DNA of 23,497 bases from a virus: positions 1 to 23,497 of the IMG/VR virus record IMGVR_UViG_3300029266_000838. One strand, 5' to 3'. The translations under genes were made by a program, and so were the position numbers. The notes beneath the pieces are model-generated. The model did no database searches. It had not been told where the DNA came from and saw nothing but the letters and a program-made list of their open reading frames with translations. This document shows, in pieces, positions 706 to 14,160 of this stretch (positions are counted from its first letter, which is position 1; each line of letters opens with the position of its first letter).

Positions 706-721
706 TATTAACTAGCTAATA
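706..721. repeat. 16-bp palindrome, copy 1 (one mismatch)
   Basis: TATTAACTAGCTAATA, one base off the family consensus TATTAAC-NN-GTTAATA. It begins one base after the stop codon of the SSB-like gene on the minus strand. Confidence 0.7.
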
Positions 722-5426: not shown

Positions 5427-5946
5427 TCCTACAGATTTAGGAACTAAAGAATTACACTCGCATTTTGAATGTGAGTTAGAGGATTTGGGGACAGGAATAT
5501 ATAGAACTAGAATTAAGACTCAGATTTATATAGATAAGTTATTTATTAACTCGTTAATAGATGAGTCTCAACATCATGCCGGTGAATTTATTTATAAATT
5601 AGCATCAAAATCCGGTATGTTCCCATCATCAGTTAACATGAACGCTACGTTCCAAGATGGTGGTATGTCAAATACTGCTTCCCATAAATCCTTAAAATCT
5701 GTTGTACTTACAAGGATCACAAAAATTTTAAGAAACTCCCGTACACCAGCATCCCAAAACACAGCTATTGGTCTACCTGATTTTCTTATAAATGTTGTTT
5801 GTTTTGATAAACCTATATCAAGCGAACAAGAATTGCACCTCTTAAAACTGGGACTAAATGCAATATCTGAACGCTTGTATAGAAAAAATTTAGATAACTC
5901 TAAAGAATGTTGTATTAATGCTGTTGAATCTGTTGTTCAAGCATAA
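5398..5946 (+). CDS. Phage protein of unknown function (182 aa)
   Basis: The gene starts inside the end of the primase-helicase gene; GAGGTGAATT just before ATG 5398 supplies a ribosome binding site, so the two are coupled. The protein has mixed strand/helix character, with FECELEDLGTGIYRTRIKTQ, an INSLIDESQHHAGEFIYKLA helix, KSVVLTRITKILRN, and a C-terminal helix LHLLKLGLNAISERLYRKN. No family is recognised. Position suggests a replication accessory role, which is inference. Its last 32 bases overlap, in convergent orientation, the small ribbon-helix-helix gene on the minus strand. Confidence 0.65.
   Translation: MLRNLIGNFNPTDLGTKELHSHFECELEDLGTGIYRTRIKTQIYIDKLFINSLIDESQHHAGEFIYKLASKSGMFPSSVNMNATFQDGGMSNTASHKSLKSVVLTRITKILRNSRTPASQNTAIGLPDFLINVVCFDKPISSEQELHLLKLGLNAISERLYRKNLDNSKECCINAVESVVQA
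5544..5559. repeat. 16-bp palindrome inside a gene, copy 3 (perfect)
   Basis: TATTAACTCGTTAATA matches the family consensus exactly, but lies within the 182-aa coding sequence (codons for FINSLI). It is the only intragenic copy and may be a real site or chance. Confidence 0.55.
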
Positions 5947-7789: not shown

Positions 7790-7805
7790 TATTAACAGGT
7801 TAATA
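7790..7805. repeat. 16-bp palindrome, copy 4 (perfect)
   Basis: TATTAACAGGTTAATA, starting one base after the stop codon of the 67-aa gene and ending before the ribosome binding site of the 101-aa gene (minus strand). Confidence 0.85.
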
Positions 7806-8578: not shown

Positions 8579-8757
8579 TAGCTTTTCACCTTTATATATT
8601 GTCTTGTTAAAGAATGTTTGAACCAATCAGTATTTGTTTTCTTATCTGAAAACATATACATAATAGGCTCGTCTTTACTCAACTGTGATTGTGTCCAAAA
8701 GTTCTTAAAAATATTTTTAATATCTTTTAAATCTTTTGTATAAATATTATTTTCCAT
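8578..8757 (-). CDS. Small phage protein of unknown function (59 aa)
   Basis: The start is placed at ATG 8757, with GGAG five bases upstream. The longer frame would run back into the hammerhead ribozyme leader and is rejected. Residues MENNIYTKDLKDIKNIFKNF and WTQSQLSKDEPIMYMFSDKK form a helix and a probable strand, followed by a basic end. Function unknown. After ribozyme cleavage this would be the first gene on a new 5' end, with a leader of 43 bases. Confidence 0.6.
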   Translation of the reverse strand: MENNIYTKDLKDIKNIFKNFWTQSQLSKDEPIMYMFSDKKTNTDWFKHSLTRQYIKVKS

Positions 8758-8789
8758 ACTTACTCCATTTTTATTATTTACTATCAATT

Positions 8790-8860
8790 GATAGCACCAA
8801 TAACACCCCAATCATTGGGATGTTTTCATAGCATCTCAGCTAATCATCAGTTGGTTTATC
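8790..8860 (-). ncRNA. Type I hammerhead ribozyme C
   Basis: Read on the minus strand. Stem I is ACCAA (8855-8851) with UUGGU (8800-8796), extended past an internal loop by GAUA (8860-8857) with UAUC (8793-8790). The core CUGAUGA is at 8850-8844. Stem II is UUAGC/GCUAU around loop UGAGAU, with a U-U at its base. GAA is at 8827-8825. Stem III is ten pairs, AACAUCCCAA/UUGGGGUGUU with a UGA loop and one U-G. The cleavage triplet is UUA, so the cut falls between 8801 and 8800. All invariant hammerhead residues are present. The stop codon of the 75-aa gene (8858-8856) lies within stem I, and the ribosome binding site of the 59-aa gene follows. Confidence 0.94.
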
Positions 8861-9083
8861 TCAATCCAATTTTTCTTTCCAAGTGCATAGTAATCACTTG
8901 TCTCATATTTTTAATAACATAATCGAATTGTTTAGGGTTAGCTTTTGCTATCGCAAATAGAGAATCCATATCATGAGGAATTACATTCTCAATCATGGAT
9001 TTTTTACTTACATACGATTTAAGTTCTCGCATCAAATCGTCTTCTAAGTCTTCTAATGTGTCTAAGTATTTTGATTTTTTCAT
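8856..9083 (-). CDS. Small helical phage protein (75 aa), ribozyme-flanked
   Basis: A charged, apparently all-helical protein: LDTLEDLEDDLMRELKSYVS, then SLFAIAKANPKQFDYVIKNM and RQVITMHLERKIGLR. GGAGG precedes the ATG and lies in the loop of a short GACC/GGTC hairpin that might limit initiation. The gene is flanked by two hammerhead ribozymes (B upstream, C at its stop codon), so it would be cut out as its own monocistronic RNA. No family is recognised. Confidence 0.65.
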   Translation of the reverse strand: MKKSKYLDTLEDLEDDLMRELKSYVSKKSMIENVIPHDMDSLFAIAKANPKQFDYVIKNMRQVITMHLERKIGLR

Positions 9084-9109: not shown

Positions 9110-9180
9110 AATTACCAATAACAGACAGCACTCGCTATCTGTTTTCATGTCATCTCAGACAATCATCAGTTGGTTTAATT
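9110..9180 (-). ncRNA. Type I hammerhead ribozyme B
   Basis: Minus strand. Stem I is ACCAA (9174-9170) with UUGGU (9118-9114), extended by AAUU/AAUU. The core CUGAUGA is at 9169-9163. Stem II is UUGUC/GACAU with loop UGAGAU. GAA is at 9046+100 offset, i.e. 9146-9144. Stem III is ten pairs, AACAGAUAGC/GCUGUCUGUU, with tetraloop GAGU and one U-G pair. The triplet is UUA and the cut falls between 9119 and 9118. Stem II differs from copies A and C at paired positions (UGUC/GACA against UAGC/GCUA), a compensatory change. It follows the VWA gene and precedes the 75-aa gene. Confidence 0.94.
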
Positions 9181-9195
9181 ATTAACAGGTTAATA
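9180..9195. repeat. 16-bp palindrome, copy 5 (perfect)
   Basis: TATTAACAGGTTAATA, identical to copy 4. It lies between the VWA-gene stop codon and hammerhead B. Confidence 0.85.
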
Positions 9196-11209: not shown

Positions 11210-11231
11210 AAGTATTAATTAGTTAATACTT
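11210..11231. repeat. 16-bp palindrome, copy 6, within a 22-bp inverted repeat
   Basis: AAGTATTAA-TTAG-TTAATACTT has perfect 9-base arms, extending the family motif TATTAATTAGTTAATA (one mismatch to consensus). It lies in the leader of the DUF3150-like gene, directly after hammerhead A. Confidence 0.75.
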
Positions 11232-11338
11232 GTTACCAATATGAATCTAACCATTAAGGAAAAACAAAGTTATAAACAACTTTATTTTTTACAGATTCAT
11301 TTCATAGCATTTCAGCTAATCATCAGTTGGTTTAAAGC
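11228..11338 (-). ncRNA. Type I hammerhead ribozyme A with long stem III
   Basis: Minus strand. Stem I is ACCAA (11331-11327) with UUGGU (11239-11235), extended by GCUU/AAGU across an internal loop. The core CUGAUGA is at 11326-11320. Stem II is UUAGC/GCUAU with loop UGAAAU. GAA is at 11303-11301. Stem III is AUGAAUCU/AGAUUCAU (eight pairs), whose end carries a second hairpin of 12 pairs (11289-11278 with 11271-11260). The triplet is AUA and the cut falls between 11240 and 11239. The MoxR stop codon (11334-11332) lies in the stem I internal loop, so cleavage separates MoxR from the DUF3150-VWA pair. Confidence 0.93.
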
Positions 11339-12321
11339 GTAATGTCTTGATGTTTGATATCAAAATCAATAAACGCTTTAGTCTTTTTCAAATCAGGATT
11401 TGATTCAATTGCATCAGTCATACACAAAATCGCAAACTCATCAGGTAATGTGTCTAAGTATTTCATGAACTTATTGATGTTTTTCTTATCCATTTTCCTA
11501 GCGATTATGCTAGTAATTGCATACAAGATAGCTGGGTCAGACTCAGTATCAAGGCTCTCAGGGTCATTTAAGATTTTATCCAATGATGGTAAACCTCTTA
11601 CAGTTCTCATAAACCCTATCAACTCAGCACTAACTCCTTGTCCAATAGTTCCGGAAAGTAGTTCATGCTCAATATCAGCACTAGGCGATTGAGCCATAAT
11701 TCTTGAAGCATACTCCCAAGTTCTAGGCGTGGCGTTAATTCCCATTTTTGCATTTTTATCAAAAACAAATAGATTCTCAGGTCTATATCTCATATAGGCT
11801 ATGACTTCCGGAATAATTTTTCCACTTGATTTTGCCCAGTCTATCCAATCGTCTACGCAAGGCTCAAATTCAAGATTAATAAATCTACCTGCCAATGCTG
11901 TATTCATTCTATTTGCTCCGGCTTTATCTGACATCCTATTTCCAGCACCAATTATCACAGTTGATTCAGGAAGTGTATATTCGCCAAGTTGTCTATCTTT
12001 AACTAACTGAAACAAAGCGTTTTGTACGCTAGGGCTACCATGAGGTAACTCATCCAAGAACAATATTGTTTTTGGGTCTTTTTCAGTTGGTAAAAATACT
12101 GGTGGATTCCACACAGTAACTCCTTCTTTTACGCTAGGTACTCCTCTTAAATCTACAGGGTCTAGCAATGATACTCTCACATCTCTAATCTCAAAACCAA
12201 GAGACTTTCCAACTTTGTGGATAATCTCCGATTTGCCGACCCCAACTCCACCATAAACAAATGATGGCTGGTTAATAGAAATGAGAGTGGAAAGTGATTT
12301 TTCTAATTGTTTCGCTTTCAT
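11332..12321 (-). CDS. MoxR-family AAA+ ATPase
   Basis: A 329-residue protein with all AAA+ elements: Walker A GGVGVGKS (24-31), Walker B ILFLDEL (86-92), sensor 1 GAGNR (125-129) and an arginine-finger GRF (145-147). The sequence between them (RVSLLDPVDLRGVPSV ... WNPPVFLPT) is typical of MoxR/CobS-type ATPases, with a helical lid afterwards (ATPRTWEYASRIM). MoxR ATPases act as chaperone-like remodelers together with VWA proteins, and one lies downstream. GGAG precedes the ATG by five bases. The transcript is bounded by a probable type III hammerhead upstream and hammerhead A at the stop codon, so this message may be isolated from its partners. Confidence 0.9.
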   Translation of the reverse strand: MKAKQLEKSLSTLISINQPSFVYGGVGVGKSEIIHKVGKSLGFEIRDVRVSLLDPVDLRGVPSVKEGVTVWNPPVFLPTEKDPKTILFLDELPHGSPSVQNALFQLVKDRQLGEYTLPESTVIIGAGNRMSDKAGANRMNTALAGRFINLEFEPCVDDWIDWAKSSGKIIPEVIAYMRYRPENLFVFDKNAKMGINATPRTWEYASRIMAQSPSADIEHELLSGTIGQGVSAELIGFMRTVRGLPSLDKILNDPESLDTESDPAILYAITSIIARKMDKKNINKFMKYLDTLPDEFAILCMTDAIESNPDLKKTKAFIDFDIKHQDITL

Positions 12322-12355
12322 ATTTACTCCATTTTTGCGATTAATAAAACTGAAA

Positions 12356-12410
12356 TGACTATTTCGCAGTAACTCATTCAGGCATGGGTACTAATCCCAT
12401 GCGATAGTCA
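12356..12410 (-). ncRNA. Probable type III hammerhead ribozyme E, altered core
   Basis: Minus strand. UGACUAU (12410-12404) pairs perfectly with AUAGUCA (12362-12356) as stem III. C12403 is the residue before the cut, in triplet AUC. Stem I is GCAUGGG/CCCAUGC with loop AUUAGUA. Then come CUGA-AU-GA (12381-12374), a very short stem II (G-C and U-G around UACU), and GAA (12365-12363). Order and junctions match a stem-III-open hammerhead. However, the core has one extra base compared with CUGANGA, and stem II is only two pairs. It could be an unusual active form or a decaying copy. It lies in the leader of the MoxR gene. Confidence 0.62.
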
Positions 12411-12418
12411 AAATTAAA

Positions 12419-12449
12419 TGGCTAGTTTTAAGGTATGTGGTACTAGCCA
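12419..12449 (-). other. 8-bp hairpin upstream of ribozyme E
   Basis: TGGCTAGT (12419-12426) and ACTAGCCA (12442-12449) form eight perfect pairs around a 15-base loop. It lies between the 42-aa gene and ribozyme E and may protect the 3' end of the upstream message. No U-run follows on the minus strand. Confidence 0.6.
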
Positions 12450-12465
12450 ACCACGAAAAATTTAC

Positions 12466-12594
12466 CTATACACCCTTAGCATTTTCAAATGCTATCTGAA
12501 ATGCTGTTTTCTTTTTTACTTTTGGCTTGTAAATTTTCATAGATATTAATTTATCTTGTTGATTCACAACCACTTTTCTTTTTGATTTTTTCAT
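12466..12594 (-). CDS. Small basic protein (42 aa)
   Basis: A short gene with GGAG five bases before ATG 12594. It follows the 69-aa gene after 31 bases that include a copy of the 16-bp palindrome. The protein is strongly basic: MKKSKRKVVVNQQDKLISMK, then IYKPKVKKKTAFQIAFENAK. Such composition suggests nucleic-acid or RNA polymerase binding, but no family is recognised. Its existence is supported by spacing and ribosome binding site rather than similarity. Confidence 0.6.
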   Translation of the reverse strand: MKKSKRKVVVNQQDKLISMKIYKPKVKKKTAFQIAFENAKGV

Positions 12595-12608: not shown

Positions 12609-12624
12609 TATTAATCAGTTAATA
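12609..12624. repeat. 16-bp palindrome, copy 7 (one mismatch)
   Basis: TATTAATCAGTTAATA, one base after the stop codon of the 69-aa gene and before the ribosome binding site of the 42-aa gene (minus strand). Confidence 0.8.
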
Positions 12625-13154: not shown

Positions 13155-13219
13155 ACCTATATATGGAACTCCGGAGAGTCCCAAATTTCGCCACCTTTCA
13201 GTGTTGCTCGTCAGTAGGT
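13155..13219 (-). ncRNA. Type I hammerhead ribozyme D
   Basis: Minus strand. Stem I is ACCUA (13219-13215) with UAGGU (13159-13155). The core CUGACGA is at 13214-13208. Stem II is GC, an AA bulge, then CACU/GGUG closed by a GAAA tetraloop, ending GC. GAA is at 13189-13187. Stem III is 11 positions (13186-13176 with 13171-13161), ten paired, with loop UCCG. The triplet is AUA and the cut falls between 13160 and 13159. It differs from A-C in every stem yet keeps all invariant residues. It directly follows the stop codon of the 100-aa gene and precedes the 49-aa gene. Confidence 0.92.
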
Positions 13220-14144: not shown

Positions 14145-14160
14145 TATTAATAGGTTAATA
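14145..14160. repeat. 16-bp palindrome, copy 8 (one mismatch)
   Basis: TATTAATAGGTTAATA, ending seven bases before the TerS ATG. It occupies the usual ribosome binding site position; no other Shine-Dalgarno sequence is visible there apart from AGG within it. Confidence 0.75.

Follow-up and report, generated by a model that had tools for sequence, protein, structure and literature searches.

A predicted type III hammerhead ribozyme with an eight-base core in the leader of a phage MoxR-like gene

Results

The DNA analyzed here (hereafter referred to as the window) is a 23,497-base virus record derived from a tailed phage, whose large terminase shares 52 to 56% identity with those of marine and lake phages, including the Pelagibacter phages HTVC027P and HTVC023P. 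On its minus strand, a gene for a MoxR-like AAA ATPase (11332..12321; Pfam AAA_5, 3.6e-07) is preceded by the Shine-Dalgarno sequence GGAG (12327..12330). The leader of this gene also holds a complete hammerhead of type III whose core has eight bases (12356..12410), 34 nt ahead of the gene start. Just upstream of the predicted cleavage site lies a hairpin, GGCUAGU...ACUAGCC (12420..12448; z about -2.2 to -2.6 for the fold of the upstream segment), and a 42-amino-acid ORF (12466..12594) terminates 55 nt upstream of the ribozyme. Comparable upstream hairpins (z<-1.5) are found in 32 of 71 members of the type III family described below. Beyond MoxR follow a DUF3150-like ORF, which scores under the Pfam cut-off, and a DUF2201 (metallopeptidase/VWA-like) gene.

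Four further hammerheads, all of type I and all on the minus strand, are positioned directly after the MoxR stop codon (11235..11331; with relatives that possess a different stem III), downstream of the DUF2201 gene (9114..9174), directly after the stop codon of a 75-amino-acid ORF (8796..8855), and after the stop codon of a 100-amino-acid ORF (13155..13219). The first three pass a type I descriptor; the fourth carries a single U-U mismatch in stem III, which is fully paired in its homologues in the viral contigs L049 and L050. The three elements recognized by the descriptor are ACCAA/UUGGU type I hammerheads in which a U-U replaces the 10.1-11.1 pair; this variant is rare in nature and was already reported in 2011 (Perreault et al., 2011). 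The MoxR gene is thus flanked by a type III hammerhead at its 5′ side and a type I hammerhead at its 3′ side, and two hammerhead classes do share one operon, as an initial model-made reading of the DNA (the sequence-only reading) had suggested. Among the elements of the window and its relatives, those of type I usually adjoin the stop codon ahead of them, while those of type III are mostly located before the next start; across the family, a Shine-Dalgarno sequence plus an ATG is found within 120 nt downstream of 57 of 66 type III members, as compared with 295 of 1420 random positions.

Stem III contains part or all of the Shine-Dalgarno sequence in 16 of 59 relatives (e.g., UCCUGU pairs with ACAGGAG); such elements are present, among others, in L261, L016, L117, L262, L228, L266, L297, L301, L252, L030, and L034. 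Self-cleavage could possibly free the Shine-Dalgarno sequence in these 16 relatives and act as a one-way on-switch for translation. We rejected sequestration by stem III as a mechanism for the window element, because its Shine-Dalgarno sequence lies outside this stem.

A near-perfect palindrome, TATTAACNNNTTAATA, recurs at eight sites of the window (706-721, 2031-2046, 5544-5559, 7790-7805, 9180-9195, 11213-11228, 12609-12624, and 14145-14160), and allowing at most one mismatch there are 17 strand matches in total, as opposed to 0.22 expected by chance. Several of these sites are located just upstream of Shine-Dalgarno sequences, and L003 and L004 have similar sequences behind MoxR. The palindrome resembles an operator or a promoter element of a phage.

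Read along the minus strand from 12410 to 12356, the type III element begins with the 5′ strand of stem III (UGACUAU; 12404..12410), whose last base is U16.1, and with C17 in the hammerhead numbering (12403); cleavage is predicted between 12403 and 12402. The two strands of stem I, GCAUGGG (12396..12402) and CCCAUGC (12382..12388), enclose the loop AUUAGUA (12389..12395; family consensus AUUGGUA). They are followed by the core CUGA-A-UGA (CUGAAUGA; 12374..12381) with the inserted base A6a at 12377, the strand GU-UACU-GC (12366..12373) that provides both a rudimentary stem II and one side of a pseudoknot, the GAA (G12 A13 A14; 12363..12365), and the 3′ strand of stem III (AUAGUCA; 12356..12362), which starts with A15.1. 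Stem III (12410-12404 with 12362-12356) and stem I (12402-12396 with 12388-12382) each comprise 7 bp, while stem II (GUUACUGC) consists of one G-C pair plus a U-G wobble; AGU (12392-12390) in loop I forms the pseudoknot with ACU (12370-12368). The block order stem III - H17 - stem I - core - stem II - GAA - stem III, the NUH cleavage triplet (AUC in the window) with its A15.1-U16.1 pair, and the GAAA core strand are those of a type III hammerhead. Because the core CUGAAUGA exceeds the seven-base CUGANGA by one base, the window element is filed as a core variant of this class. The perfect outer stems with AUC, core and GAA in the right order, the overlong core, the nearly absent stem II, and the type III topology had all been described by the sequence-only reading and are found as it stated them. 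By its position, the extra base is A6a, situated between the CUGA turn and N7. The alternatives of a shifted stem I or an extension at A9 were discarded, since stem I has 7 bp with either core length and G8-A9 must precede G10.1.

When the 55 nt are folded to minimum energy, these stems form (-15 kcal/mol; z -2.1); the fold of the whole leader, computed with a program that cannot model pseudoknots, lacks stem III and contains a competing structure, which speaks against the element. We used a type III descriptor (CUGA-N1-2-GA, NUH, GAAA) that allows one or two bases at N7. It scores 14 bp at the window element, a value reached by none of 1000 dinucleotide-shuffled windows, the best of which scored 10 bp. 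An independent covariance model (CM R1), built from 21 phage members with seven-base cores of which none belongs to the MoxR group, finds the element at 12356-12409 with 53.1 bits (E 7e-16 over 441 kb, a rough value as calibration was shortened). CM R1 also recovers other eight-base members, and the displayed alignments (L034, L040) contain exactly one insert after CUGA; it finds the known hammerhead of Pseudomonas phage PaP3 (L309, 45416-45469, minus strand) weakly, with 18.3 bits. A scan of the window with Rfam 15 at gathering and relaxed thresholds gave no match to the hammerhead families but only chance hits. This silence is uninformative, because Rfam at the gathering score misses the PaP3 hammerhead and canonical-core relatives as well.

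Homologues of the element were obtained from viral contigs fetched through their MoxR protein (57 to 100% identity) and were hence chosen independently of the core. This comparison of MoxR leaders, which the sequence-only reading had set beforehand as a refuting test, left the element standing: CUGAAUGA is kept in all 10 distinct ribozyme sequences at MoxR loci. Overall, 96.8% of the cells are paired, and 11 of 19 pairs have changed on both sides, as compared with 0 to 1 in slid controls. The cells of stem I are 100% paired and include two-sided changes, four of the seven pairs of stem III have changed on both sides, and the U16.1-A15.1 pair is present in every homologue. The loop I-loop II pseudoknot covaries too: its pair 19-43 varies from G-C to A-U, and AGU/ACU of the window corresponds to a compensatory GGU/ACC elsewhere. 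In the distant homologues (L003, L004, L046, L049, and L050), alignment of the 60 nt upstream of the elements does not surpass that of shuffled sequences, or does so only barely.

To capture the wider family, 2.9 million viral contigs were scanned with patterns that never fixed the stems, and the stems were checked subsequently; conservation of the columns fixed by a pattern is circular and was not counted as evidence. Members have in common a stem III spanning about 4-9 bp, a cleavage-site base that is C or U, a 7-bp stem I, the loop AUUGGUA, the core, G-NN-ACC..C, and GAA. H17 is C or U in 71 of 71 members, even though the search descriptor barred only G. The pattern used for counting fixes the loop and ACC, so that the AGU/ACU subgroup of the window lies outside the following counts: 44 distinct members have a seven-base core (N7 being U in 18, C in 16, and A in 10), and 25 have an eight-base core, with the linker AU (CUGAAUGA) in 21, UU in three, and AC in one. 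Nine-base cores have no members; the pattern matched three times in the viral contigs, each time without stems. U occupies N7 in 24 of 25 eight-base vs. 18 of 44 seven-base cores (Fisher 2.6e-6; 4.7e-4 once similar members had been crudely collapsed, a step that leaves part of their relatedness in place).

Both core lengths occur at orthologous loci. Such pairs are L262 (CUGACGA) and L117 (CUGAAUGA), with 94% identity over 1142 bp; L274 (CUGAAGA) and L078 (CUGAAUGA), 93% over 406 bp; L301 (CUGACGA) and L016 (CUGAAUGA), 88% over 857 bp; L236 (CUGACGA) and L222 (CUGAACGA), 84% over 679 bp; and L226 (CUGAUGA) and L214 (CUGAUUGA), 85% over 798 bp. Since orthologous loci differ in core length and N7 is skewed toward U, the sequence comparisons indicate repeated gain or loss of one additional core base and a constrained linker; two additional bases were never seen. 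Other subfamilies of type III hammerheads contain eight-base cores as well (loop AAUUAA in L003 and L019; loop GUGU in L008). L008 carries six type III hammerheads with several loop types within 9 kb, seven- and eight-base cores together. A second type III hammerhead in L003 (6003-6062) and L049 (5206-5263) combines CUGAAUGA with two further bases, AA, that separate stem II from GAA; its core is thus expanded twice, and this is conserved between the two phages. On contig L289, two type II hammerheads recognized by Rfam (8962-9030 and 8710-8774) accompany a member of the type III family.

No prophage example was found, as the eight-base pattern is unmatched in 84,980 bacterial and archaeal genomes. 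The closest cultivated phages by terminase (HTVC027P, HTVC023P, 023Pt_psg01, and DSL-LC04) contain no credible hammerhead, their one descriptor match being chance-like, and the trait is therefore not essential across the wider group.

Discussion

Taken together, these comparisons argue for a real type III hammerhead that is very probably active, possibly slow. The explanation that we favor, and consider likely, is a self-cleaving element with an A6a insertion that is held in shape by a pseudoknot and splits the operon transcript ahead of MoxR. The three-pair contact between loop I and loop II would take the part of a genuine stem II in keeping the active conformation, and this substitution accounts for the minimal stem II. 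In view of the covarying pseudoknot, the short stem II is no deficit; weak stems II offset by a pseudoknot are known from many hammerheads in a survey of bacteria and phages (Perreault et al., 2011; PMC3088659). In a published structural reading of hammerhead catalysis, G12 serves as the general base and the 2′-OH of G8 as the general acid (PMC6155905).

The most likely function is a co-transcriptional cut at 12403/12402, which would give MoxR its own 5′ end. The upstream product would terminate in the hairpin (12448-12420) and a 2′,3′-cyclic phosphate, while the MoxR mRNA would start with a 5′-hydroxyl and the folded ribozyme body, its 3′ end being made by the type I hammerhead after the stop codon. 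The body of the ribozyme stays with the downstream RNA in type III hammerheads and with the upstream RNA in type I hammerheads; with type III before and type I after MoxR, both bodies would remain on the MoxR mRNA. In bacterial RNA turnover, 5′-hydroxyl ends and end-hairpins generally slow decay. We infer that the arrangement may serve to divide the polycistronic transcript into units of independent stability.

That the element merely resembles a hammerhead by chance within an AT-rich leader, as the missing Rfam match at every threshold used might suggest, is hardly conceivable given the shuffled windows, the independent model, and the changes across the family; judged by this covariation, chance resemblance is already refuted. 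The perfect outer stems, a core off the consensus, and a fixed position near the start codon would also suit a catalytically dead fold that is retained as a structural leader element, be it a 5′ stabilizer of the mRNA, a protein site, or a translation element. Such a fold, however, need not keep CUGA, GA, GAAA, the UH triplet, and the A15.1-U16.1 pair beside canonical-core orthologues at the same loci, and an open-ended stem III, if uncut, would add little stability; we regard this explanation as improbable. The related proposal of a relic with intact outer stems is contradicted by the kept core and the compensatory changes among the MoxR-locus homologues.

Within the favored explanation of a self-cleaving element, the extra base might deliberately slow the reaction, so that partial cleavage sets the ratio of polycistronic to monocistronic RNA. 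An A6a insertion confers low activity on another natural hammerhead, for which the survey gives a structural reason that counts against activity of the window element as well (Perreault et al., 2011; PMC3088659), and switching between seven and eight bases at orthologous loci is what a tunable rate would lead one to expect. The restriction of the eight-base linker to AU, rarely UU or AC, suggests a kept geometry rather than mere damage, and we consider a deliberately slow ribozyme rather unlikely. We can conceive, tentatively, of CUGA-AU-GA as a second, fully competent hammerhead core of phages, in which the U-turn is connected to the tandem G-A pairs by a linker of two bases. Such a core would have been acquired or lost on repeated occasions, with its linker held to AU.

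Among catalytic RNA motifs, the hammerhead core is the textbook case of invariance, and published work leads one to expect that an insertion after A6 spoils it. If a second competent core were to exist, the supposedly fixed seven-base core would have a natural eight-base solution. Natural orthologous pairs that differ in core length make this question directly testable, and a type III hammerhead before and a type I hammerhead after MoxR suggest a role for hammerhead clusters in phages that can likewise be tested. Both Rfam and searches that rely on CUGANGA overlook the eight-base elements.

The sequence-only reading had considered a minimal natural variant. A core variant it is, but not a solitary one: the family comprises about 70 distinct phage elements, roughly one third of them with eight-base cores. 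Each oddity has a precedent in Perreault et al. (2011; PMC3088659), where stems II of 2 bp are common and both a natural U10.1-U11.1 mismatch and the A6a insertion are described. New is that the eight-base core is common and conserved; within our incomplete coverage of the literature, we found no earlier description of this, and a literature search for CUGAAUGA returned no hammerhead paper among the matches listed. The bacterial and phage type III hammerheads of that survey share with the window element the block order, NUH, GAAA, a weak stem II of about 2 bp, and a pseudoknot between stems I and II, and several hammerheads are likewise grouped around small phage genes and flank genes in prophage DNA. 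The type III cores of the survey are the seven-base CUGANGA, in contrast to the recurrent and conserved eight-base cores found here, and some canonical-core members of our family may already figure there. The hammerhead with the same one-nucleotide insertion after A6 (its Figure 5, S6) is presented as rare and of low activity, whereas 25 distinct elements carry an eight-base core in the AUUGGUA family alone and have kept it despite divergence of their stems.

The PaP3 hammerhead, listed among active core variants in the same survey (PMC3088659), is a phage type III element that CM R1 detects; unlike the window element, it has a seven-base core, a U-U at 10.1/11.1, a 4-nt loop I, and a longer stem II. 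RAGATH-1-hammerhead (RF03152), a hammerhead variant by its Rfam name, was rejected as the identity of the element, because the best matches in six related phages of the family reach 10.8-13 bits, with none above 13 bits, against a cut-off of 56.3, and control genomes match equally well. The type II hammerheads (Hammerhead_II; RF02276) have stem II open and stem III closed, the reverse of the window family. Ten of them in the fetched loci (L235, L239, L245, L250, L254, L255, L267, L268, L272, and L294) possess the same AUUGGUA (or GUUGGUA) loop together with G-NN-ACC. Because type II and type III elements have the same loop I and G-NN-ACC strand, these two parts represent, as judged from the sequences, one tertiary module used in two permutations of the hammerhead.
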